32,073 nt of DNA from assembly GCA_947624875.1 (NCBI GenBank), contig CANQMA010000019.1, forward strand, positions 1-32,073, in the 5' to 3' direction. Of the stretch, positions 19,690-29,821 are shown piece after piece. A model generated the notes under the pieces. It saw only the letters and a list, made by a program, of their open reading frames with translations. It had not been told where the DNA came from and did not search any database. A program made the position numbers and the translations under genes. Each line of letters opens with the position of its first letter. The first letter of the stretch is position 1. The stretch comes from an uncultured Lachnospiraceae bacterium (lineage in GTDB: Bacteria; Bacillota; Clostridia; Lachnospirales; Lachnospiraceae).

Positions 19690-21294
19690 TTGAAAACAAA
19701 TTGGATGAAAAAAATTAGTTGCACTCTGTGTATTATTTTGTTTGCACTATGTTTCTACAGTCCGGTTGGAGCGGAAAATGTTGACGCAAAGCCAGAAGAA
19801 AAAACTACGATACACATCTTGTTTATTGGCAACAGTTCCACTTATTATAATCAGATGCCTAAGATTGTAGGAGGATTGGCAGAGGCAAATGGGATACCGA
19901 CAGAAATATCTTCCATTACAGCGGGAAATTACAAATTAACACAGTTTGCGGATGAGACGAACGCCTATCACACGCAGATCGTGGAGATGCTGAAAAAAGA
20001 AAAGTGGGATTATGTGGTTTTACAGGATCATAGGGAATCCATTATTCAAAATCTTTCTGAAAGCAAGGAGGCAGTCATGTCTCTGAAAAAACTCATTGAT
20101 GAAGCGGGAGCGCAGACAATCTTATATGAAACGCAGGCAGATTTGAATGGCCGGAGCTTTAAAATCAATGATATGTCCGTCTTTCTTGATCAGGAACAAA
20201 TTCAATATTTATTGAATCAAAATTATTATCAGTTGAGTAATCAGCTGAACGTAACATTGTCTCCGGCAGGTATGAATTATGTTAAATGTATGCAGGTTTA
20301 TCCTGAAATTAATCTGTACTATACGGATTCACAACATCCATCGATTGCAGGAAGTTATTTAGCAGCATGCAGTCTTTATGAAACTATTTTTGACGATACT
20401 GCCTATGGAAATGAATTTGTGCCGGGTAGTGAACTGGATACAAATAGTCTGTTGAAGGGACTGGATTTAGAGGAAGCACAGAAACTTCAGGAAGTAGCGG
20501 ATGAGAGAATCAAAATCAAAAAAAAGAGCCAGTCCGTTATTAAAGGATTTACAGGGGAAATTACCGCAGAACGGATAACTTCAGAAGATAATCCGCTCAA
20601 TGCAAAATTCAGCGACAGTGTAAAATATATCAGTCTTGATGATAAGGTCCTGTCGGTGAATCAGCATAATGGAACATTTACGGCAATCAACCCGGGAGAA
20701 ACGATGATTATGGTACTATCTGACAGCGGATTGATGGCGTTGAGCAGTGTTACGGTAACTCAGCCTGCCACATCGATTTCCATCGCAGAGGCAAGCGGAA
20801 CCAAACTTTATCGGGGAGATAAACTGGCCTATACCGTCTCTCTGGCACCGCTTGATTCAACAGATAATATCAAATGGACAAGCAGTAATCCTTCGATTGT
20901 AAGCGTTTCAAATAGTGGTGAAATCACTGCCAAAAAAATTGGAAGCGCAACAATTACGGCAACTGCGGACAGCGGTGTAAAAGTAAGCCGGACAGTGTAC
21001 GTTCGATTGAAGGAAGTAACCAAAGTAAAAGCGAAAAAAATAAAGACAAAGCAGAAAAAGAAAGCAAGCGTTAAGGTGACGTGGAAGAAAAATTCTGCAG
21101 CGGTGGTTTATTATGTATATCGAAGGGTAAAAGGAAAATCCAAGTATAAAAAAATTGCAAATGCATATTCTGCAAAATATACCGATAAAAACCGCGTAAA
21201 AGGGAAAACATATTATTATAAGATTCGTGCAGTCTATTCCAATACAAAATGTAACAGTTTAAAATCGGCGTATGCAAAAATTACTGTTAAATAA
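19690..21294 (+). CDS. Secreted DUF4886/SGNH-hydrolase-like protein with Ig-like and FN3-like domains
   Basis: A 534-residue exported protein. The signal peptide covers about residues 1-29, with a basic start, hydrophobic core and cut near VGAEN. An SGNH-type domain follows: FIGNSSTYYNQMP gives the presumed nucleophile S49, and DSQHPS gives D213 and H216. This matches DUF4886 proteins, which are predicted esterases or carbohydrate-acting enzymes. Next come two BIG2-like Ig folds (about 285-355 and 357-440; WTSSNPSIVSVSNSGEIT is typical). A very lysine-rich FN3-like domain ends the protein. No sortase motif is present. The TTG at 19690 is preferred because AGGAGG lies 7 bases upstream; ATG 19705 is too far from it. 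The substrate is unknown. Confidence 0.8.
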   Translation: MKTNWMKKISCTLCIILFALCFYSPVGAENVDAKPEEKTTIHILFIGNSSTYYNQMPKIVGGLAEANGIPTEISSITAGNYKLTQFADETNAYHTQIVEMLKKEKWDYVVLQDHRESIIQNLSESKEAVMSLKKLIDEAGAQTILYETQADLNGRSFKINDMSVFLDQEQIQYLLNQNYYQLSNQLNVTLSPAGMNYVKCMQVYPEINLYYTDSQHPSIAGSYLAACSLYETIFDDTAYGNEFVPGSELDTNSLLKGLDLEEAQKLQEVADERIKIKKKSQSVIKGFTGEITAERITSEDNPLNAKFSDSVKYISLDDKVLSVNQHNGTFTAINPGETMIMVLSDSGLMALSSVTVTQPATSISIAEASGTKLYRGDKLAYTVSLAPLDSTDNIKWTSSNPSIVSVSNSGEITAKKIGSATITATADSGVKVSRTVYVRLKEVTKVKAKKIKTKQKKKASVKVTWKKNSAAVVYYVYRRVKGKSKYKKIANAYSAKYTDKNRVKGKTYYYKIRAVYSNTKCNSLKSAYAKITVK

Positions 21295-21409: not shown

Positions 21410-21449
21410 ATGGCTTTATTTTGACAAGCCATAGCAGATATGATAATAT
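21410..21449 (+). promoter_or_regulatory. Candidate promoter and operator of the importer-acylation operon
   Basis: A perfect -35 TTGACA (21421-21426) is followed by TAATAT at 21444-21449 (17-base spacer) or GATAAT at 21442-21447 (15). Inverted arms ATGGCTT (21410-21416) and AAGCCAT (21426-21432) overlap the -35 and could hold a repressor. It lies 58 bases before the binding-protein start. Confidence 0.5.
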
Positions 21450-21506
21450 CGAGTTCGACATTCTACGAATTCTTTATTATAAATAAAAAGTGAAAAGAGG
21501 TAAAAA

Positions 21507-22496
21507 ATGAGGATGATGAAGAAATTTGCAGCATTATTGTTAGTTGCAGCGATGGTGACATGCGTATTCACAGCATGTGGAAGTAAGGATGCAGAAAACA
21601 CAGACAAGAAAGCAGAAATTACGATTGCATATCAGCCGAGTATCGGATATGCGCCGCTGCTTGTAATGAAAGAAAAAGGTCTGATTGAAAAGGCCTATGA
21701 CGGAGACATTCAGGTAAACTGGAAAGAAATGAACAACGGTTCTGAAATTACGGAAGCCCTGACAGCAGGTTCCCTGGATGTGGGCTGTGTCGGCGTTCCG
21801 GTTGCAGTAACCGGCATTAAGGCGGGAAGCCCATACAGAATTGCTTTTGGCATTTCAGCGCAGCCTTATGCAATCCAGACAAACAACCCGGACATTAAGT
21901 CTTTAAAAGATATCACAAAGAAGGATCAGATTGGTATCACAAATATTAACAGCCAGCCGCATATTCTTTTAGCAATGTGGGCAAAAAATGAACTGGGTGA
22001 CGCACATGCACTTGACGGTAATCTGACCGTGCTGAGTAATCCGGATGGATATTCTTCCATCGTGTCCGGCGCAGTTTCCTGCCATATGGTAATCTCACCA
22101 TTCAATTTTATGGAAACAGCCAGCAAGGAAAAAGCAATTCATGAGATTCCGGTAGACAACAGCGTATGGGCAGATGATAATACGGCGTTGGTTGCAATAG
22201 CAACACAGAGCTTGAAGAACGACAGACCGGAAGTATACGAAGCACTGATTCAGGCTGCTGACGAGGCAGATCAGTACATCGCAGACCAGCCGGAAGAAGT
22301 AGCGAAAATACTTGCGAAAGATTATGACGCTTCCGATGAGGAAATTTTATCCTGGATGCAGGATTCCAGATCTTCTTATGAAACTTCCATCAAAGGCGTA
22401 ATGCAGATGGCAAAATTCATGGAAGATGAAGGCTTTATTGAAGAGGCGCCAAAGAATATTGATGAAATCGTTTATGACAATGTAAAAGGAGAGTAA
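21507..22496 (+). CDS. ABC transporter substrate-binding lipoprotein, NMT1/SsuA-like
   Basis: A 329-residue extracellular binding protein with a lipoprotein signal peptide; the predicted lipidated cysteine is C24 in VFTACGSK. The body begins ITIAYQPSIGYAPLLVMKEKGLIEKA, the typical opening of the NMT1/SsuA/TauA family. It continues with GSLDVGCVGVPVAV and a two-lobed fold layout. Members bind sulfonates, taurine, nitrate, thiamine-pyrimidine precursors or small aromatic and other acids, so sequence alone does not fix the ligand. An AGAGGT site lies 6 bases before the ATG at 21507. It is first in the operon and is followed by a stem-loop that may keep its mRNA more abundant than the permease's. 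Confidence 0.88.
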   Translation: MRMMKKFAALLLVAAMVTCVFTACGSKDAENTDKKAEITIAYQPSIGYAPLLVMKEKGLIEKAYDGDIQVNWKEMNNGSEITEALTAGSLDVGCVGVPVAVTGIKAGSPYRIAFGISAQPYAIQTNNPDIKSLKDITKKDQIGITNINSQPHILLAMWAKNELGDAHALDGNLTVLSNPDGYSSIVSGAVSCHMVISPFNFMETASKEKAIHEIPVDNSVWADDNTALVAIATQSLKNDRPEVYEALIQAADEADQYIADQPEEVAKILAKDYDASDEEILSWMQDSRSSYETSIKGVMQMAKFMEDEGFIEEAPKNIDEIVYDNVKGE

Positions 22497-22520
22497 CTAA
22501 ATTTACAAAGTCAATATTTT

Positions 22521-22547
22521 AGAAAAGATCCTTCAGGGGTCTTTTCT
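22521..22547 (+). terminator. Attenuator-like hairpin between binding protein and permease
   Basis: An 11-bp stem, AGAAAAGATCC (22521-22531) with GGGTCTTTTCT (22537-22547), has one G-T pair and a 5-base loop. It lies between genes one and two of the operon without a clear downstream T-run. Such hairpins usually stabilise or partly terminate the binding-protein message. Confidence 0.55.
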
Positions 22548-22579
22548 ATGCGTTTAAAGATAATACAAGGAGAGGTAAT

Positions 22580-23356
22580 GTGAATAAGAGTTTTAAGAAA
22601 TTGATTGCCCAGATTTTATTTGTTATTGCAGTTCTTGCATTATGGCAGATTTTATTTTCCATGAAAATCTGGCCGGAAATATTGTTTCCGTCTTTAGGAG
22701 ATATCGGAGAAAAATTTATTAAGGCATTTCGTGTCGACGGTTTGGGAGGAATGGTACTCCATTCATTAAAACTGTTGTTAGAGGGACTTGCTTTGGGAAT
22801 TATCGTTGCGTTGATTTTTTCCAGTCTGTCCGTTATCAGCCAAACATTTTATGCAATCTACAATATGATTGTTTCCATGTTTGACCTGATTCCGGGTATC
22901 GCGCTGATCCCGGTTGCAATTCTGTGGATGGGCATCGGCGACGCTTCTATTATCTTTATGGTATTTCATTCTGTCGTATGGCCAATGTCAAGAAGCGTGA
23001 TTGACGGATTTAATGCAGTGCCGGACTTATATCTTGAGGTTGGAGAAAATATCGGATTAAATCCGTTTAAATTAGTGTTCGGCGTGTTCTTACCGGCGGC
23101 GCTCCCGAGAATTTTTTCCGGAATTAAAGTCGGCTGGGCGAGAGCATGGAGAGGCTTAATCAGCGCCGAGATGGTATTTGGCGGCGGAAGCGCTTTAGGC
23201 ATCGGTTATTATATTACCGACAGAAGAACCAACTTAGACGTTGCGGGAATTTTCGCGACAATCATTGTCATCATATTGATTGGTATGGTGATTGAATATG
23301 GCATTTTCCGCACTGTGGAAAACAAAACCTTTAAGAAATGGGGTATGACGCGATGA
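22580..23356 (+). CDS. ABC transporter permease, SsuC/TauC-like
   Basis: A 258-residue inner-membrane permease of the BPD_transp_1 family with about six hydrophobic helices. The EAA-type coupling loop is seen as VFLPAALPRIFSGIKVGWARA near residues 172-192, where the ATPase docks. The start is a GTG at 22580 with AAGGAGAGG just upstream. An ATG at 22578 overlaps it out of frame and meets a stop at once (ATGTGA), so GTG is the only workable start. The stop overlaps the ATPase start by ATGA, indicating translational coupling. It is partner to the NMT1-like binding protein. Confidence 0.92.
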   Translation: MNKSFKKLIAQILFVIAVLALWQILFSMKIWPEILFPSLGDIGEKFIKAFRVDGLGGMVLHSLKLLLEGLALGIIVALIFSSLSVISQTFYAIYNMIVSMFDLIPGIALIPVAILWMGIGDASIIFMVFHSVVWPMSRSVIDGFNAVPDLYLEVGENIGLNPFKLVFGVFLPAALPRIFSGIKVGWARAWRGLISAEMVFGGGSALGIGYYITDRRTNLDVAGIFATIIVIILIGMVIEYGIFRTVENKTFKKWGMTR

Positions 23357-24120
23357 ATAATAATCAGAAACCTATTTTGACCATTAACAATTTAAAGAAA
23401 CAATATGATAATTCGCAGCGCGTGATTATCAATAACATGAATTTAGAGGTATATGACGAAGACTTTTTGTGCGTGCTCGGCCCGTCCGGCTGTGGAAAAT
23501 CCACGTTGATTCGTTGTATTGCCGGTTTTGAGGATTACGAAGGAGTGATTGAAGTAGGGCAGAAAAAGGTGACAAAGCCGGGTCCTGACCGCATTATGGT
23601 ATTTCAGGATTTCAATCAGTTGTTTCCTTGGAAAACGGTGTTGAAAAACATTACCTATCCGTTAAAAGTGGGAGGAATGAAGAACAAACAGGAGCGTATT
23701 GAAAAAGCGGAAAAGTATCTTGACAAGGTAAATCTGCTGCCGTACAAGGATTATTACCCGCACCAGTTAAGCGGTGGTATGAAGCAGAGAGTTGCCATTG
23801 CAAAGGGGCTGGCGCTCGGTTCACGTATTATTTTGATGGACGAGCCGTTTGCCGCGCTGGATGCAATGACCAGAAACCAGATGCAGGACGAATTACTTCA
23901 TATTAAGGAAAAAGAAAAAATGACCGTCATCTTCATTACCCATAATATTCAGGAGGCGCTTTCTCTTGGAAACAGAATTATGGTCATGTCAAAGCATGGG
24001 GAAATTCGGGAACATCTATATAATACAATTGAAAAACCGGTGACGCCGGCAAGCGAAGGTTATGGAGAACTTTGGGAACACTTAAATCATTTATTAAGAG
24101 AAGAAAAAAACAAAGAGTAA
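23353..24120 (+). CDS. ABC transporter ATP-binding protein, SsuB/TauB-like
   Basis: A 255-residue cytosolic ATPase. Walker A is LGPSGCGKST, the Q-loop is VFQDFNQLFPWKT, the signature is QLSGGMKQR, Walker B is IILMDEPFAALDA, and the H-loop is FITHNIQEA. The PGPDR and FPWKT features are characteristic of the nitrate/sulfonate/taurine ATPase group. The ATG at 23353 overlaps the permease stop and is preferred over 23338. The stop lies only 13 bases before the SGNH gene start, which ties the importer to the acylation cassette. Confidence 0.95.
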   Translation: MNNNQKPILTINNLKKQYDNSQRVIINNMNLEVYDEDFLCVLGPSGCGKSTLIRCIAGFEDYEGVIEVGQKKVTKPGPDRIMVFQDFNQLFPWKTVLKNITYPLKVGGMKNKQERIEKAEKYLDKVNLLPYKDYYPHQLSGGMKQRVAIAKGLALGSRIILMDEPFAALDAMTRNQMQDELLHIKEKEKMTVIFITHNIQEALSLGNRIMVMSKHGEIREHLYNTIEKPVTPASEGYGELWEHLNHLLREEKNKE

Positions 24121-24133
24121 ATTGGAGCAGATG

Positions 24134-25657
24134 ATGAAAGTTAAAATTCAGAGAATACTAAAATCTATTTTGTTTTGTGTGCTGATTTTGGCAATGTTAA
24201 ATTTTATTACCCGCTTATTTACACCAAAGTGGCTGGAAAACCGGTGGGCTTCTGCCAAAACAAACAAAACGTTTTATGAGTTGAAAGACAATAGTATTGA
24301 CGTTGGGTTTTATGGTTCCAGCGTGGTAGCCGCAGCAGTCGACCCGTTTCAGATTTACAAGGAACAAGGCATTTCCAGTTATAATTTCGGTGTCATGTCG
24401 CAAAATATGATGGGAACCTATTTCTGGTTTAAGGAATCCTTGAGAACCCAAAAACCAAAGGTGGTCTGCATAGAGATTAAGGCGGCCGGAAGAACACAGG
24501 ATAAAGATCAGGATAAGGCCAGAAAATCTTACGATTACATGGAGTGGAGCAAAAACAAGCTGCAGTATGCTTATGAAAATGAGCATACCTATCACCAGGA
24601 TGAGTTATGGGAATACTTGTTTCCACTGGCAAAATATCATGACCGCTGGACTGAATTAGCATATGACGATTTTGATTTTATCTCTGGAAATTATAGAAGT
24701 TTCAGCAGAGGAATGGTTTCCCTGACCAGCGAGTGCAGGGAAAAAGATCCCGACCTTGCTGACACGCCGGGAATTCAGTTGGATCCAAAAAATGTCAAAA
24801 AGAATTTTAACAAAGTAAATGAAGCTTATTTAGAGCGTATTATTAAAGAGAGTCAGGCCCAGGGGATTCAGGTCGTTTTATTTAAAACACCGGATTCCGA
24901 TTGGACGACGCAAAAACATAACCATATTGTGGAAATTGCAAAGCGTTATAAAAATGTTGCTTTTCTGGATTTGAGTACCAGAAACTGGTTTGAGGAACAA
25001 AACTTTGTATATGCTACGGAAGCAAGTGATTATTTTCATGTAAATCTGATTGGCACGAAAAAAGTTTCCGCTTATCTGGGCAGTTATTTAAAAAAGAACT
25101 GTGACTTGCCGGACCGCAGAAAAGACCGGGAAATATCAAAAATATTTGATGAGGAATTGAAGGATTACGAATGTTTCTATGCAGATGCAATGCTAAACTT
25201 TGAAACGAATCCGACAAAATTCTTTGAAAAACTGAAAGAAGACCGGTATGCAATCTTAATCAGCAGTGGACAGTCTCTTGCAAGTCATTATTCTGATGAA
25301 GAAAAAAATGCATTGAAGGCTTTGGGACTTACGAATAAATTCTTTAAAGTTTATGAAGGGGGAACCAATGCAATTGCGATTTTGGATGGCAGTCAAAAAG
25401 ATATCATCACATCACAAATTACAGAAGACAAACCGCAGATCAGCACTTCAAAAATTTTGAGCAACGGGGTGCCTGTGAAACTTGTCAGCGGCAAGAATGC
25501 CAGCAGCATTGTGATTGGTGGAACAGATGAAGTCGTTACGACTAACGGCGTCAATCTGATCGTATATGACAAACAGACAAAATCAGTTGGGGATAGTGTT
25601 AATATTACATTAGACAGTAGTGGAAAAATTGTATTAAAAAGAAAGGTGGGTAGATAA
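24134..25657 (+). CDS. DltD/AlgX-like SGNH acyltransferase-associated membrane protein with ILEI-like C-terminal region
   Basis: A 507-residue protein with one N-terminal membrane anchor (about residues 11-28) and an extracytoplasmic body. The SGNH features are FYGSSVVAA (nucleophile S62) and SDYFHVN (D299 and H302), as in DltD and other partners of MBOAT proteins. These finish acyl transfer to a surface polymer. From about residue 371 a second region begins, with ILISSGQSLASHYSDEEKN. It ends GVNLIVYDKQTKSVGDSVN, which resembles the interleukin-like EMT-inducer (ILEI) domain of bacterial surface-glycan enzymes. The ATG at 24134 is chosen because GGAG lies 6 bases upstream; ATG 24131 and TTG 24122 are alternatives. 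The C-terminal call is from memory and less certain. Confidence 0.75.
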   Translation: MKVKIQRILKSILFCVLILAMLNFITRLFTPKWLENRWASAKTNKTFYELKDNSIDVGFYGSSVVAAAVDPFQIYKEQGISSYNFGVMSQNMMGTYFWFKESLRTQKPKVVCIEIKAAGRTQDKDQDKARKSYDYMEWSKNKLQYAYENEHTYHQDELWEYLFPLAKYHDRWTELAYDDFDFISGNYRSFSRGMVSLTSECREKDPDLADTPGIQLDPKNVKKNFNKVNEAYLERIIKESQAQGIQVVLFKTPDSDWTTQKHNHIVEIAKRYKNVAFLDLSTRNWFEEQNFVYATEASDYFHVNLIGTKKVSAYLGSYLKKNCDLPDRRKDREISKIFDEELKDYECFYADAMLNFETNPTKFFEKLKEDRYAILISSGQSLASHYSDEEKNALKALGLTNKFFKVYEGGTNAIAILDGSQKDIITSQITEDKPQISTSKILSNGVPVKLVSGKNASSIVIGGTDEVVTTNGVNLIVYDKQTKSVGDSVNITLDSSGKIVLKRKVGR

Positions 25658-25660
25658 AAG

Positions 25661-27256
25661 ATGAATTTTACAAGTCTGATGTTTTTACCTTTTGTTGCAG
25701 TTGTCTGCCTAATGTATTTTACAGTATTTCGCAGATGCCAGTGGTTTTTGCTTCTGCTGGCGAGTATTGCATTTTATCTTTTTTCAGGACCAAAATATAT
25801 TGTCTTTATTATCATTACAGCATTGAGTACTTATCTGTTAGCACTCCTGATTCAGGAGCTGCACGAGAAGGAAAAAGAAGCGCTCGCTGTTCCTGAATTG
25901 AAAAAAGAAGATAAGAAAAAAATTAAGAAAAAATATACCAGAAGAAAAAAATTCTGGCTGATTTTAGACTTTTTAATCAATATTGGACTGCTCTGTGTGA
26001 TTAAATATCTGGATTTTGCGCTGACCGGAGTAACAGCGCTCCTGAAACATTGGAATATTGACTGGAGCAGATCTTTCAACTTTGTCTTACCGCTGGGGAT
26101 TTCTTTTTACACCTTTATGACGGTTGGATATATTTTAGACATTTACTGGAAGCGTTATAAAGCAGAGGAAAATCCGCTCCGCTTTATGCTGTTTACGATG
26201 TATTTTCCGCATATCCTGCAGGGACCAATTGCGAGATACAATAAACTTGCTCCGCAATTTTGCGAAAAACATCGTTTTAATTATGATCAGTTTACCAAGG
26301 GCATTCAATTAATGCTTTGGGGTTATTTTGAAAAAATGGTCATTGCTGACCGGCTGGCTATTTTTGCCAACGGCGTCTATGCAAAGTGGGATTCCCTGAC
26401 AGGCGTGCCGCTTGTCATTGCCATCGTCTTTTTCTCCATGCGGCTGTATCTGGATTTCCAGGGATGTATGGACATTGCGCGGGGCGTATCTCAGATGTTT
26501 GGCATTGAACTGGAACTCAACTTCTGGCACCCGTATTTTTCAAAGAATATGCCGGAATTCTGGAGAAGATGGCACATCACACTGGGCGCATGGTTTAAGG
26601 ATTATCTTCTTTACCCGGTTTCCATGTCAAAACTGTGTAAATCCATCAACAAGTTTACGAGAAGAAAATGGGGCAATCAGGTTTCCCGTTCTCTGGCAAC
26701 AGTGATTCCTGCCGCATGCGTATGGTTGATAACCGGAACATGGCATGGCGCAGCAATGTGCTATATCCTCTGGGGAATTTATCATGGAATTCTGATCATA
26801 TTGAGTTCTCTCTTTGAAATTCCTATCATGAAATTGAACAGCGTACTTCATATCAATACAGAGTGTTGGAGTTTTAATTTATTCAGAATGGCGAGAACCT
26901 TTGTCCTCTCTGCAATCGGACGTATTTTCTTTGTTGCCACAGCAGGATTTGATCAGGCGGTTGCAATCATCCAGAGAACTTTTGATTTTAAACATTTCCG
27001 CCTATACACTTTATGGGATGAAAGTCTTTACACTTATGGATTAGACCGTTATAATTTTAACCTGGCAATTCTTTTGATTGTACTCATCTGGGGCGTTAGT
27101 ATGCTTCAGGAAAAGATGAATATTCGGGATGAAATCGCAAAGCAGAATTTAATTTTCCGCTGGATGTTGTATTTATTGCTCATTGCAGGTATTATTATCT
27201 TTGGTGTTTATGGCACAGGCTATGATGCATCATCCTTTGTATATGGTAAATTTTAA
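25661..27256 (+). CDS. MBOAT-family O-acyltransferase, AlgI/DltB-like
   Basis: A 531-residue polytopic membrane protein with around ten to twelve hydrophobic helices. It moves an acyl group from a cytosolic carrier to the outside of the membrane. Family blocks are LPLGISFYTFMTVGYILDIYW, YFPHILQGPIARY, FWRRWHITLGAWFKDYLLYP and the histidine pair in TGTWHGAAMCYILWGIYHG (H362 and H375). The early lysine-rich stretch (residues 75-97) lies in a cytosolic loop. A GAAAGGTGGG site precedes the ATG at 25661, 3 bases after the SGNH gene. The AlgI-type length and motifs fit a carrier-protein-dependent O-acyltransferase. The acceptor polymer is not known. Confidence 0.9.
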   Translation: MNFTSLMFLPFVAVVCLMYFTVFRRCQWFLLLLASIAFYLFSGPKYIVFIIITALSTYLLALLIQELHEKEKEALAVPELKKEDKKKIKKKYTRRKKFWLILDFLINIGLLCVIKYLDFALTGVTALLKHWNIDWSRSFNFVLPLGISFYTFMTVGYILDIYWKRYKAEENPLRFMLFTMYFPHILQGPIARYNKLAPQFCEKHRFNYDQFTKGIQLMLWGYFEKMVIADRLAIFANGVYAKWDSLTGVPLVIAIVFFSMRLYLDFQGCMDIARGVSQMFGIELELNFWHPYFSKNMPEFWRRWHITLGAWFKDYLLYPVSMSKLCKSINKFTRRKWGNQVSRSLATVIPAACVWLITGTWHGAAMCYILWGIYHGILIILSSLFEIPIMKLNSVLHINTECWSFNLFRMARTFVLSAIGRIFFVATAGFDQAVAIIQRTFDFKHFRLYTLWDESLYTYGLDRYNFNLAILLIVLIWGVSMLQEKMNIRDEIAKQNLIFRWMLYLLLIAGIIIFGVYGTGYDASSFVYGKF

Positions 27257-27269
27257 GGAGAGATAAGTA

Positions 27270-28757
27270 ATGAATGATGTCAATTCAATTGTAGAGGCGC
27301 TGAGTGTCAATGCAGAAAAAATCCCCAATAAACTGGCTCTGGCAGACAAGAAAAACAGTGTGACTTATGCCCAGCTCTGGGAGATGGTACAAAAAGGCGC
27401 GACATTTCTAAAGCATCAGGGAGTTTTAAAAGATGAGATTGTGATTATCCGCGGTGGAAACAAAGTAGAATTTATAATTGCAGTCTTGTCCGTACAGCTC
27501 GCTGGTGGAACTGCATGTCCGACAGAAAAGGCAATTAAGGATGATAGAGTTTCAGAGATTATGGAATTTCTTGGTTCAAAGACTTATATCGCGGACAAGC
27601 CGGCAGCGATTGAAAATATCAACAATATTAGTCTGAAAGAATTATTCAAATATGTGAAAGAACCGGAATCCCTGATGGAATCATTTCCATTTCCAAATCC
27701 GGAAGCGTTATCGGAGATTCTTTTTACAACCGGAACAACGGGAAAATCAAAAGGAATTGAAGTGACGTTTGCATGTAATATCAGTATTGCGCAAAACGTT
27801 ATTGACAGTGTGGATATGGGTGCTGACGAAGTGGAATTGATGACTTCTCCAATCAATCATTCGCTGGGAATCCGTCGAACCTACACTGCGATTTATCTTG
27901 GAAGTACTGCGGTATTGACAGAAGGATTTAAGTTTGCAAACAGCTTTTATAAGCTGTTGGATACGTATCAGGTCACCGCGATTACATTTGTTCCGGCTAT
28001 TCTGGAACAGGTACTGGCAGATAATGCAGAAAAATTTGCGACCTACAATCAACAGTTTCATTATATCCAGTTGGGTTCTGCACCATTGTCAGAGACTAAT
28101 AAGGAACTTCTCGTAAAGATGTTTCCGGATGTACGTCTGTATAACACTTATGGCGCTACGGAATCCGGCTGTACCATTATCTTAGAATTCAGCAAATACG
28201 GAAATAAACACAAATGTATCGGAAGAACGACTGTCAATACAACCGTACTGTTTGTAAATGATGAGAGGGAAATCATTGAGCCGACGCCGGACAATCCGGG
28301 ATACCTGTCATTTAAAGGTTCCATGAATATGAAAGGATATCACAAAGAACCGGAAATTACTGCAGAAGTAATGAGCGACGATGGGATTGTGTATACGAAC
28401 GATCTGGGTTATCTGGGAGAAGACGGTTTTGTCTATCTTCTTGGACGCGTCGGTGAGGTCATCAATATGGGCGGCATTAAAATTGCCCCGACCGAAATTG
28501 AAGAGGTTGTGATGAAACATCCGATGATAAAGGACTGCGCATGCATTCCAATCCCGGATGCAATCACCGGAGAAGCCCCGAAGCTGTTTGTTGCATTAAA
28601 CGACGGTTATGAATTTGATCAGGTTGAATTATCCAGATATATGTTGGACAAACTGGAGTCTTTGAAAGTGCCAAAGGTCTTTGAGGTCATTGATGAGATT
28701 CCGAGAACCTTCAATGGAAAGATTATTCGAAAAGATTTAAAGAATAGAAACTCATAA
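27270..28757 (+). CDS. AMP-forming acid ligase (DltA-position acyl-activating enzyme)
   Basis: A 495-residue ANL-superfamily enzyme that adenylates a carboxylic acid and passes it to a phosphopantetheine thiol, presumably the carrier protein encoded next. Core motifs are LFTTGTTGKSKGIEV (P-loop), YNTYGATESG (A5), GRVGEVINMGGIKIAPTEIEE (A7-A8 hinge), and PRTFNGKIIRKDL with the catalytic A10 lysine. The A4-like stretch MTSPINHSLGIRR has the aromatic/histidine form of acyl- and aryl-acid ligases, not the aspartate used by DltA to bind an amino group. The substrate is thus probably a plain carboxylic acid. An AAGGAGAG site lies before the ATG at 27270, 13 bases after the MBOAT. Confidence 0.85.
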   Translation: MNDVNSIVEALSVNAEKIPNKLALADKKNSVTYAQLWEMVQKGATFLKHQGVLKDEIVIIRGGNKVEFIIAVLSVQLAGGTACPTEKAIKDDRVSEIMEFLGSKTYIADKPAAIENINNISLKELFKYVKEPESLMESFPFPNPEALSEILFTTGTTGKSKGIEVTFACNISIAQNVIDSVDMGADEVELMTSPINHSLGIRRTYTAIYLGSTAVLTEGFKFANSFYKLLDTYQVTAITFVPAILEQVLADNAEKFATYNQQFHYIQLGSAPLSETNKELLVKMFPDVRLYNTYGATESGCTIILEFSKYGNKHKCIGRTTVNTTVLFVNDEREIIEPTPDNPGYLSFKGSMNMKGYHKEPEITAEVMSDDGIVYTNDLGYLGEDGFVYLLGRVGEVINMGGIKIAPTEIEEVVMKHPMIKDCACIPIPDAITGEAPKLFVALNDGYEFDQVELSRYMLDKLESLKVPKVFEVIDEIPRTFNGKIIRKDLKNRNS

Positions 28758-28832
28758 AACGAATCATCCTAGTAAATACAATGAAAATAATGAGCAGTTA
28801 TCAATGGCTCATGAGATATAAAAGGAGGTATC

Positions 28833-29057
28833 ATGATGAGAGACGAAGTGATTGAAATTATTAATTCAATTTGTCCGACATTGGATGTCACAGATGAGGA
28901 TTTAAACATCGCAGAAGACATGGATTCTATGGATATTATTGCTTTAATCGCAGAATTAGAAGACAAGTTTGACATTGACATCACAATGGAAGAAAAGACA
29001 GAAGAAAACTTCGAGAACGTTGACACTCTTGTAGAAATGATTCAGCGTTTACAGTAA
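28833..29057 (+). CDS. Acyl carrier protein, DltC-like
   Basis: A 74-residue acidic protein with the phosphopantetheine site DMDSMDIIALIAELED, the modified serine being S32. It is presumably loaded by the upstream ligase and serves the MBOAT. Its sequence is close to general ACPs, but the gene order gives it a dedicated role. AAAGGAGG precedes the ATG at 28833; ATG 28836 is equally possible. It sits 75 bases after the ligase, in a mostly featureless gap, and ends at a strong terminator. Confidence 0.9.
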   Translation: MMRDEVIEIINSICPTLDVTDEDLNIAEDMDSMDIIALIAELEDKFDIDITMEEKTEENFENVDTLVEMIQRLQ

Positions 29058-29065
29058 TAAGAATT

Positions 29066-29091
29066 AAAAAAAGAGCTTCGGCTCTTTTTTT
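29066..29091 (+). terminator. Rho-independent terminator after the carrier protein
   Basis: GAGC (29073-29076) and GCTC (29081-29084) close a TTCG tetraloop, extended by A7 on the 5' side and T7 on the 3' side. It lies only 16 bases before the ATG of the next gene. Confidence 0.85.
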
Positions 29092-29107
29092 ATAACAGGA
29101 GGAACAA

Positions 29108-29821
29108 ATGAAACAAAAGATAACAATCGCCTTGCTGCTTGTATCCGCATTGATGATGAGTGCCTGCACGAGCAGCAAAGAGGCCGGGCAAAGCAGTTCC
29201 GTAGAAAATACTGAGGATACGACGCAGATATTGCAGAGTGCCGAAGAGGAATCTTTAGAAACTTTTGAAGATCTGATGACCCAGATGGAGATCAGTGAAT
29301 ATCTCTTTAAAGAGCAGACAGGTGCAAAGCATCTGTTAGTGATTCAAAATAATTCCGACAAAACAGTAACCGTATCTTCCCATTCGGAAGCGCTTGGAAA
29401 GAAAGGAAACGTAGTCGGAGAGGGCAGTGGAACTGTGGAAGCCATTGGACCGGGTGCCGTTTCTTATATTTTAGAGGATATCAAGGCATCAAAAAGCATA
29501 TTCGAGTGTGAATATGAAATAGAAGTTTTAGAAGCAGAGGATTACGCCTCTGTGGTCGAAAATCTAAAGACCACGGTGGAGACAGTGGATGGAAAGGCTG
29601 TCGTTTCCACAACAAATGAAGGAATTCAAGAGGTAGAGAATGTTCAGGAACTGGCCGTTTTCACAAAGGAAGGAGTGGTTACCAATATTGTTTCTAAAGA
29701 TATTGCAGACAGCAGCTCTCCATTGACAGCGGAAACGACTCTTACCAAGGATTTCGAGGCGGGAAATGCAGAGTTTGATGACGTACAGGTTTATGTGAGA
29801 GGGTATAACAAAACCAAATAG
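29108..29821 (+). CDS. Putative lipoprotein of unknown function
   Basis: A 237-residue protein with a clear lipoprotein signal peptide; MMSAC places the lipidated cysteine at about residue 20. A Ser/Glu-rich linker follows, then a mainly beta domain (about 60-237) that I do not recognise. It has alternating short hydrophobic strands such as KHLLVIQNNSDKTVTVSS and a final DVQVYVRGYNK. AGGAGG precedes the ATG at 29108. Since the carrier-protein terminator ends 16 bases before the start, it has no room for its own promoter there. It probably depends on readthrough. By position it may assist the surface acylation system, which is inference only. Confidence 0.7.
   Translation: MKQKITIALLLVSALMMSACTSSKEAGQSSSVENTEDTTQILQSAEEESLETFEDLMTQMEISEYLFKEQTGAKHLLVIQNNSDKTVTVSSHSEALGKKGNVVGEGSGTVEAIGPGAVSYILEDIKASKSIFECEYEIEVLEAEDYASVVENLKTTVETVDGKAVVSTTNEGIQEVENVQELAVFTKEGVVTNIVSKDIADSSSPLTAETTLTKDFEAGNAEFDDVQVYVRGYNKTK

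Follow-up and report, generated by a model that had tools for sequence, protein, structure and literature searches.

The stretch of DNA analyzed here (the window; 32,073 nucleotides, contig CANQMA010000019.1 of assembly GCA_947624875.1) is part of the 1.79 Mb, 84% complete genome of an uncultured Lachnospiraceae bacterium, and it carries an operon-like array in which an ABC importer is joined to a Dlt-like acylation cassette. The seven open reading frames (ORFs) of the array are all on the plus strand (21507-29057) and are followed by a terminator-like hairpin. They encode a substrate-binding lipoprotein (SBP) of the NMT1_2/SsuA-like type (21507..22496; PF13379, 69 bits), an ABC permease (22580..23356; PF00528, 63.7 bits), an ABC ATPase (23338..24120; PF00005, 95.3 bits), an SGNH/DltD-like protein with a probable membrane anchor (24122..25657), an MBOAT acyltransferase (25661..27256; PF03062, 38.3 bits), an AMP-forming acyl ligase (27270..28757; PF00501, 179.9 bits) and an acyl carrier protein (ACP; 28833..29057; PF00550, 27.8 bits), in which S32 is the likely phosphopantetheine site. 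The Pfam cut-offs are exceeded for NMT1_2/NMT1, BPD_transp_1, ABC_tran, MBOAT, AMP-binding and PP-binding. The permease and ATPase genes overlap by 19 bases and the remaining gaps, counted from the listed starts, are in gene order 83, 1, 3, 13, and 75 bases, where the 1-base gap between ATPase and SGNH is measured to a TTG, with in-frame ATG codons 9 and 12 bases further on. The hairpin at the end of the operon (29065..29092, 12 pairs) is listed on the minus strand only but, as a palindrome, would also serve the plus strand. The genome contains two more MBOAT genes elsewhere (32-35% identity).

An initial annotation, made from the letters of the window, had named these seven genes, and the ORF list together with the Pfam and NCBIfam searches agrees with it on families and strand. 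The order SGNH-MBOAT-ligase-ACP (D-B-A-C in Dlt terms) is also as it described, but there is nothing special about that order, as relatives vary (B-D-A-C in L039, A-C-B-D in L075 and L211, and others). Its range of gaps, from overlapping to 75 bases, is right as to the overlap and the 75-base gap but misses the 83 bases between SBP and permease. Its cassette end at 29821 is too far, because the stem at 29065-29092 precedes the lipoprotein ORF at 29108-29821 and because that ORF has no family above cut-off in Pfam or NCBIfam and no tblastn match at E<=1e-3 in 40 loci (one of which, L033, ends at the ligase); the ORF lies beyond the terminator-like stem and outside the operon. The start it gave, 21421, does coincide with a promoter-like site on the plus strand (21421..21449; TTGACA-17-TAATAT, with TG before the second hexamer), but this consensus match is weak evidence because the region holds 30 such sites vs 23.5 in shuffles. 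On the 5′ side of the operon (19690-21294) is a gene for a secreted protein with DUF4886 and Big_2 domains, possibly a surface esterase, and a DUF4886 protein is also near the cassette, in either orientation, in four loci of the same genus (L033, L034, L035, and L036).

Importer coupling in the ligase clade

Relatives of the ligase were taken from an alignment scan with one genome per species, of which the best 80 of 566 were used, and from a search of 397 genomes of the family, 31 of which gave a match at E<=1e-90. The tree (IQ-TREE, quick search) includes 122 of the 125 distinct ligases, three short ones having been dropped, and the window ligase falls within a core clade of 49 rows (SH-aLRT 95); most of the named relatives belong to the Lachnospiraceae, to uncultured Eubacterium or to other Clostridia. 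An importer gene is found within 6 kb of the ligase in 40 of the 49 core loci, comprising 23 ABC, 14 DASS, one ABC plus DASS and two EutH, and within 3 kb in 31 of them. By the same 6 kb measure an importer is near 2/22 DltA-like ligases, and both of these (L095 and L215) share their locus with a core ligase and its importer, while the count is 0/24 for the other ligases (22 of them form a sister clade and the other two are L135 and L225; several are on short contigs), 0/8 for Bacteroidota, 0/4 for LIG4 and 0/3 for the group paired with aldehyde dehydrogenase (ALDH). In two small sister groups DctM or DASS is present in 2/7 and 3/5 loci, the first figure becoming 3/7 at a lower threshold.

The arrangement of the genes is far from fixed. 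An MBOAT search and the surrounding regions showed the full window order in G013, G002, and G103, and the same order in G006 as far as the ligase, where the contig ends. The order in G049 is importer-MBOAT-SGNH-ligase-ACP, that in L213 is MBOAT-ACP-LIG-SBP-PERM-ATP-SGNH, and in L219 LIG-ACP is divergent from SBP-PERM-ATP; importer genes are located within the cassette in both L213 and L040. G019, from the same genus as the window, has a DASS permease gene directly after the ligase and no ABC importer of the window kind near the cassette, and in G055 a DASS gene is between ACP and ligase. MBOAT, SGNH, and ACP are all within 6 kb in 26 of the 49 core loci, and an importer is present even where no MBOAT or SGNH is recognized within that distance (e.g., L080, L212, and L090, the last from the cultured commensal Blautia schinkii DSM 10518, in which a core ligase adjoins a DASS). 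Because the neighbors are kept while both gene order and importer type change, the importer and ligase appear to share a function, and as the importer accompanies the ligase also in loci with no recognized MBOAT or SGNH within 6 kb, the imported compound is probably the substrate of the ligase. The comparison supports the view that the importer is not next to the cassette by chance but belongs to it. This is what the initial annotation had proposed, and the situation that it named as fatal to its proposal, with most relatives lacking the importer, is not what we see; its further suggestion that the imported acid is the one activated is favored by the same tracking.

Searches of 160 family genomes point the same way. 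A window-type SBP (E<=1e-20) is present in six of them, beside the ligase in G000 (the window genome), G049, and G103 and elsewhere in the genome in G074, G222, and G240. All six are among the 31 of 397 genomes with a ligase, that of G074 being of the LIG4 type outside the core clade (L044), and for fully independent genomes, an assumption that does not quite hold, the overlap would have a probability of (31/397)^6, or ~2e-7. The ligase-type DASS (64-70% identity) is found in 3/160 genomes (G240, G222, and G055), in each case beside the ligase, and the next-nearest DASS in these 160 genomes is only 41-43% identical.

Several other features of these loci can be noted. In G222 and G240 the window-type ABC importer is accompanied by a LysR-like gene (L279/L280), with the ligase and DASS elsewhere in the genome. 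A TupA-like ATP-grasp gene directly follows the window-type importer of G074 (L278:10190-11086), and another is near the ligase at L096:4639-5520. L104 (9062-11506; from Pfam) and L087 (7149-9596; from length and homology) each have an ORF of ~815 residues that joins a LysR regulator in frame with a core-clade ligase, and EutH is within 6 kb of both fusions, directly before the ligase in L104. A DctM-type permease is near the sister-clade ligases of L094, L112, L114, and L120, adjoined in three of the four by a small membrane ORF of ~100 residues, and no binding protein was recognized by eye in these four loci. Pantothenate genes beside the ligase in L083, L086, and L212 were considered as a clue to the substrate and rejected, as they appear to reflect a shared chromosomal site.

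Putative active-site residues and the sulfonate lead

No Pfam or NCBIfam model matches the SGNH protein at E<=0.001, and we assign it from its position and from three residues, G65, S67, and H306 (counting from the TTG at 24122), that are kept by 90% or more of 28 SGNH rows; its hydrophobic N-terminus suggests a membrane anchor. The MBOAT residues H305 and H362 reach the same level of conservation (at least 90% of 28 rows), and so in the broad sense the conserved MBOAT His and SGNH Ser/His partner of an MBOAT-SGNH machine are present. The MBOAT ends in FVYGKF (27236..27253), an instance of the acyl-shuttle motif FXYXXF, which according to PMC12148441 is on the DltX microprotein in Dlt and on the C-terminal part of the MBOAT in PatA. 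The strict motif is found in the last 25 residues of 28 of the 32 complete MBOATs near core ligases and the other four have Y as the last residue of the motif, such that F-x-Y-x-x-[FY] describes all 32. The window proteins are below the cut-offs of the Dlt models, with 141.5 bits for the MBOAT against LTA_dltB (cut-off 375) and 29.8 (cut-off 68) and 20.2 bits (cut-off 52.35) for the ACP against two DltC models.

The ligase has the AMP-binding and C-terminal domains and the fold of the ANL (AMP-forming) superfamily, with matches to acyl-CoA ligase and MenE models below their cut-offs. The AlphaFold2 model is of high quality (predicted local distance difference test, pLDDT, 91.7), and comparison of its fold did not discriminate among ligands. 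More informative are the alignment columns of the pocket. Column 198 is Asp in 19/22 DltA-like rows, presumably the A4 Asp that binds the amino group of D-alanine in DltA, and S, A, or T in the core rows (S198 in the window), and the window ligase is outside the DltA-like clade and reaches 151.8 bits against the DltA model (cut-off 476). R202 is present in 49/49 core rows and forms with R203 a basic pair in the window ligase (27873..27878). A second Arg is found in every core row at one of two positions, as R203 with C301 in 33 rows, including the window (C301, 28170..28172), or as R301 with T, C, or S203 in 16, with both or neither in none, and parsimony requires two changes, of which the first falls in a clade of 15 rows and the second in L096. 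In a phmmer alignment columns 203 and 301 correspond to positions 243 and 340 of 4CL2, which we take to line the acyl pocket, although a literature search found no confirming paper. Among the 24 other ligases, column 203 is mostly V or some different non-basic residue (R203 in one) and column 301 mostly G. As the second Arg changes place yet is kept, the substrate would have a distal anionic group, and the alignment suggests that the acid activated by this ligase has an anionic tail.

A candidate for such an acid comes from genes of sulfonate metabolism. According to PMC11489063, the glycyl radical enzyme HpfG makes 3-sulfopropionaldehyde, part of which is oxidized in Enterococcus gilvus to 3-sulfopropionate that was detected in its spent medium, and several gut Firmicutes have clusters of this kind. 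In L101 an MBOAT-SGNH-ACP-ligase cassette is convergent with ALDH-LysR-HpfG-activase-taurine-like ABC importer (the activase by eye), where the glycyl radical enzyme is identified as the (2S)-3-sulfopropanediol dehydratase HpfG (NF048009, 1286 bits, cut-off 1000). L253 has the order ALDH-PERM-SBP-ATP-activase-HpfG-LysR-FeADH-MBOAT-SGNH, where FeADH is an iron-type alcohol dehydrogenase (Fe-ADH), and then reaches the contig end; it is from the same genome as L096, a separate contig that starts 228 bases before a core ligase. The two loci share 65% identity in ALDH, 63% in SBP, and 66% in HpfG. The sister ligases of L226, L227, and L150 adjoin an ALDH, followed in L226 by Fe-ADH, and their genomes (G301, G273, and G537) all have HpfG over the cut-off. 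In G022, of the window genus, the HpfG operon includes ALDH, Fe-ADH, and its own ABC importer; this ALDH is 66% and 69% identical to those of L226 and L227, and the Fe-ADH is 58% identical to that of L226.

HpfG was searched for in the ligase genomes of 45 of the 80 loci, a set without the Bacteroidota rows and most of the 24-row group, and the HpfG status of core rows from the family sample assumes that the HpfG and ligase searches took the same 397 genomes, many of which are incomplete. Within this scope HpfG over the cut-off is present in 7/45 ligase genomes vs 10/397 of the family (Fisher p 6e-4) and 2/321 of the class (p 8e-6), one of the latter two (G538) having its HpfG at the same place and with the same score as the ligase genome G506. 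Among the core rows HpfG is found in five of the nine without an importer (L060, L085, L086, L096, and L101) vs 3/40 with one (Fisher p 0.003), or in 4/7 vs 3/40 when L096 and L097, which are cut by contig ends, are omitted (p 0.006). L101 is scored as importer-less because its nearest binding protein is 6.7 kb away, beyond the 6 kb limit. The clearest pair within one genus is G002 (L055), with ABC and DASS at the cassette and no HpfG over the cut-off, and G022 (L060), with no importer at the cassette and an HpfG of 1490 bits. The window genome gave no HpfG match, as expected for an importing organism, although this absence is weak evidence because the genome is only 84% complete.

Proposed pathway and alternatives

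What the sequence itself shows are the genes, the coupling of the importer, residues of catalytic type and of the shuttle, the basic columns of the pocket and the links to HpfG; from these we infer which way the acid flows, what the ligand and the acceptor are and how the acyl group is transferred. We propose an importer-fed MBOAT-SGNH surface acylation system whose acid is most likely a C2-C3 sulfo-carboxylate, a reading to which we assign a probability of about 0.68. The ABC importer (SBP, permease, and ATPase) would take up a small acid that bears a second anionic group besides its carboxylate, and the ligase would adenylate the carboxylate and load the acid onto the phosphopantetheine of the ACP, in the way that DltA charges DltC. 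Next, the MBOAT would carry the acyl group across the membrane from the ACP to Tyr528 in its own FVYGKF motif, and Ser67 of the SGNH protein would pick it up and deliver it to an extracellular polymer. The first candidate for the acid is 3-sulfopropionate, which relatives would either import or make from dihydroxypropanesulfonate via HpfG and an aldehyde dehydrogenase. The further step, that a surface polymer is esterified with 3-sulfopropionyl or a near sulfo-acyl group, giving the cell a permanently charged sulfonate coat built from an organosulfonate that neighboring microbes derive from plant sulfoquinovose, is put forward tentatively and at somewhat less than even odds.

A number of observations weigh against this proposal. 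The ligases of LIG4 (0/4) and Bacteroidota (0/8) mostly have K203 yet no importer, and the EutH of two core loci does not suit an acid. The nine-row subclade of the window, which includes L074 with HpfG in its genome, differs from most core rows at columns 199, 239, and 293, and for this reason the acid of the window may be a different anionic one. The SBP structure predicted from the single sequence is poor (pLDDT 38). The strict shuttle motif is also found in 17 of 20 MBOATs near DltA-like ligases and is therefore not specific to the cassette, and 10/49 core loci, some on short contigs, have no MBOAT, SGNH, or ACP within 6 kb. As to the HpfG link, there is no MBOAT or family ligase in 20/22 HpfG-type neighborhoods examined (16/18 of those over the cut-off), HpfG over the cut-off and ligase occur together in only 2/397 family genomes (G273 and G301; 0.8 expected, p 0.18) and three HpfG genomes also keep an importer (L074, L076, and L212). 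The contrast between making and importing the acid was chosen post hoc, after L101; counting L101 as importer-bearing gives p 0.017, and omitting L101, L096, and L097 gives 0.022. A tree-aware pair test had two to three pairs in favor and none against (median p 0.25), and it cannot reach significance because informative pairs are too few. Six other DASS are just as near to the ligase-linked DASS as the two HpfG-linked ones of G058, all at 41-43%, and a special kinship of the two kinds is not supported.

The same machinery could handle another acid, such as the dicarboxylate succinate, which likewise carries a distal anion and is commonly transported by DASS. The ligase-linked DASS belong to CitMHS/Na_sulph_symp, one of them matching SLC13 and VcINDY carriers in the PDB, DctM-type TRAP permeases adjoin sister ligases, and two Arg residues would hold a carboxylate equally well. 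However, a dedicated importer would be hard to explain for a compound made by most cells, succinate is not commonly bound by proteins of the SsuA/NMT1 type, and the two HpfG/ALDH operons by acylation genes, together with the HpfG-operon-type ALDH by three sister ligases, point to 3-sulfopropionaldehyde; we consider a dicarboxylate unlikely, though a serious contender. It is rather improbable that the importer and ligase merely feed an acid into coenzyme A (CoA) metabolism, with MBOAT-SGNH as a chance neighbor. The several core ligases that have an importer and no MBOAT or SGNH nearby (10/49 loci have no cassette gene within 6 kb) would fit such a catabolic or assimilatory role, as would the sub-cut-off scores with acyl-CoA ligases and MenE, but MBOAT, SGNH, and ACP accompany the ligase in 26/49 loci, the dedicated ACP points to a carrier-bound product, the importer genes are inside the cassette in L213 and L040, and AMP-forming activation would cost a fermenter ATP.

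The importer might instead recover acyl groups hydrolyzed off the cell's own polymer rather than a foreign acid. The gene for the secreted DUF4886 protein just 5′ of the operon, with its counterparts in four other loci of the genus, would suit such recycling, but an internal source of the acid is then needed and the window genome, as far as its 84% extends, has no HpfG match, making this quite improbable. An ordinary D-alanylation operon with an unrelated importer on its 5′ side would account for the DltB-like MBOAT, the ligase, the carrier and the shared general logic, and yet the DltA, DltB, and DltC scores are all below cut-off, the ligase has S198 in place of the A4 Asp and is outside the DltA-like clade, and importer coupling is clade-wide. 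On family cut-offs, tree position, the pocket Asp, and the clade-wide importer we reject it, leaving it only a trace of probability.

Relation to known systems

Compared with Dlt (DltABCD plus DltX), the proposed importer-fed system shares the AMP-forming ligase, dedicated carrier, MBOAT, SGNH partner and carrier-bound acyl donor (PMC12148441), and it differs in its missing A4 Asp, two basic pocket residues, importer in the locus and variable gene order. The shuttle motif is on DltX in Dlt and on the MBOAT C-terminus in the window, the latter location being shared by DltA-like cassettes of these Clostridia (17/20). Peptidoglycan O-acetylation by PatA-PatB resembles it in having an MBOAT with its own C-terminal shuttle motif and an SGNH protein (PMC12148441), but PatA uses acetyl-CoA directly whereas the window has a ligase, ACP, and importer. 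The SsuABC/TauABC transporters likewise have an NMT1/SsuA-type binding protein, one permease and one ATPase, but the window SBP reaches only 101.7 bits for SsuA_fam (cut-off 163.5) and 23.5 for the taurine model (cut-off 304.25), and the window operon has no desulfonation enzyme. The HpfG-HpfD-HpfXYZ fermentation pathway, from dihydroxypropanesulfonate to 3-hydroxypropanesulfonate (3-HPS) and 3-sulfopropionate, has a counterpart in the HpfG, activase, ALDH, and Fe-ADH genes beside relatives of the cassette. In that pathway the acid is an end product formed via a CoA-acylating ALDH and an ADP-forming ligase, whereas the AMP-forming ligase and ACP of the window would keep and use it.

The initial annotation had presented scavenging and decorating as an undescribed idea, which is too broad a claim given the scavenging of choline for phosphorylcholine decoration. 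In Lic1 systems scavenged choline is imported, activated and placed on teichoic acid or lipopolysaccharide as phosphorylcholine, and the likeness lies in a small molecule that is taken up, activated and set on a surface polymer. The Lic1 product is a choline phosphodiester and not an acid ester, and Lic1 is not known to include an MBOAT, SGNH protein, or ACP. A search of the open-access literature (titles and beginnings of abstracts) found neither an importer-coupled MBOAT-SGNH system nor a sulfopropionyl or sulfoacetyl polymer. The parts are known, and within that scope the clade-wide combination of an exchangeable importer, ligase, carrier, MBOAT, and SGNH protein appears to be one that has not been met before. 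To the earlier proposal our analysis adds the probable anionic pocket, the importer swaps, the MBOAT shuttle motif and 3-sulfopropionate as candidate.

The acyl groups of known MBOAT-SGNH systems, acetyl or D-alanyl, come from within the metabolism of the cell. With a clade of dedicated and exchangeable importers, some gut Clostridia would have a surface chemistry that depends on compounds supplied by diet and by other microbes, and lineages would alternate between uptake and synthesis of the acid. Should the acid be 3-sulfopropionate, the breakdown of sulfoquinovose would be linked to envelope structure, and a new sulfonate modification would be predicted that mass spectrometry could look for. 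Excreted 3-sulfopropionate is respired by Bilophila (PMC11489063); the pathway would give this compound another use, and gut sulfonates a fate besides excretion and respiration to H2S.

In L055 (4780-11952) an ASST arylsulfotransferase, APS kinase, and SsuA_fam importer adjoin the DASS and the acylation cassette. The Bacteroidota ligases of L124, L127, L133, L139, L140, L149, and L151 have as common neighbors (by eye) an exporter-like protein of ~970 residues and an oxidoreductase. An amidohydrolase and an MmgE/PrpD gene are directly before a sister-clade ligase-ACP-MBOAT-SGNH array in L099 (7074-9968), a possible route to another acid.

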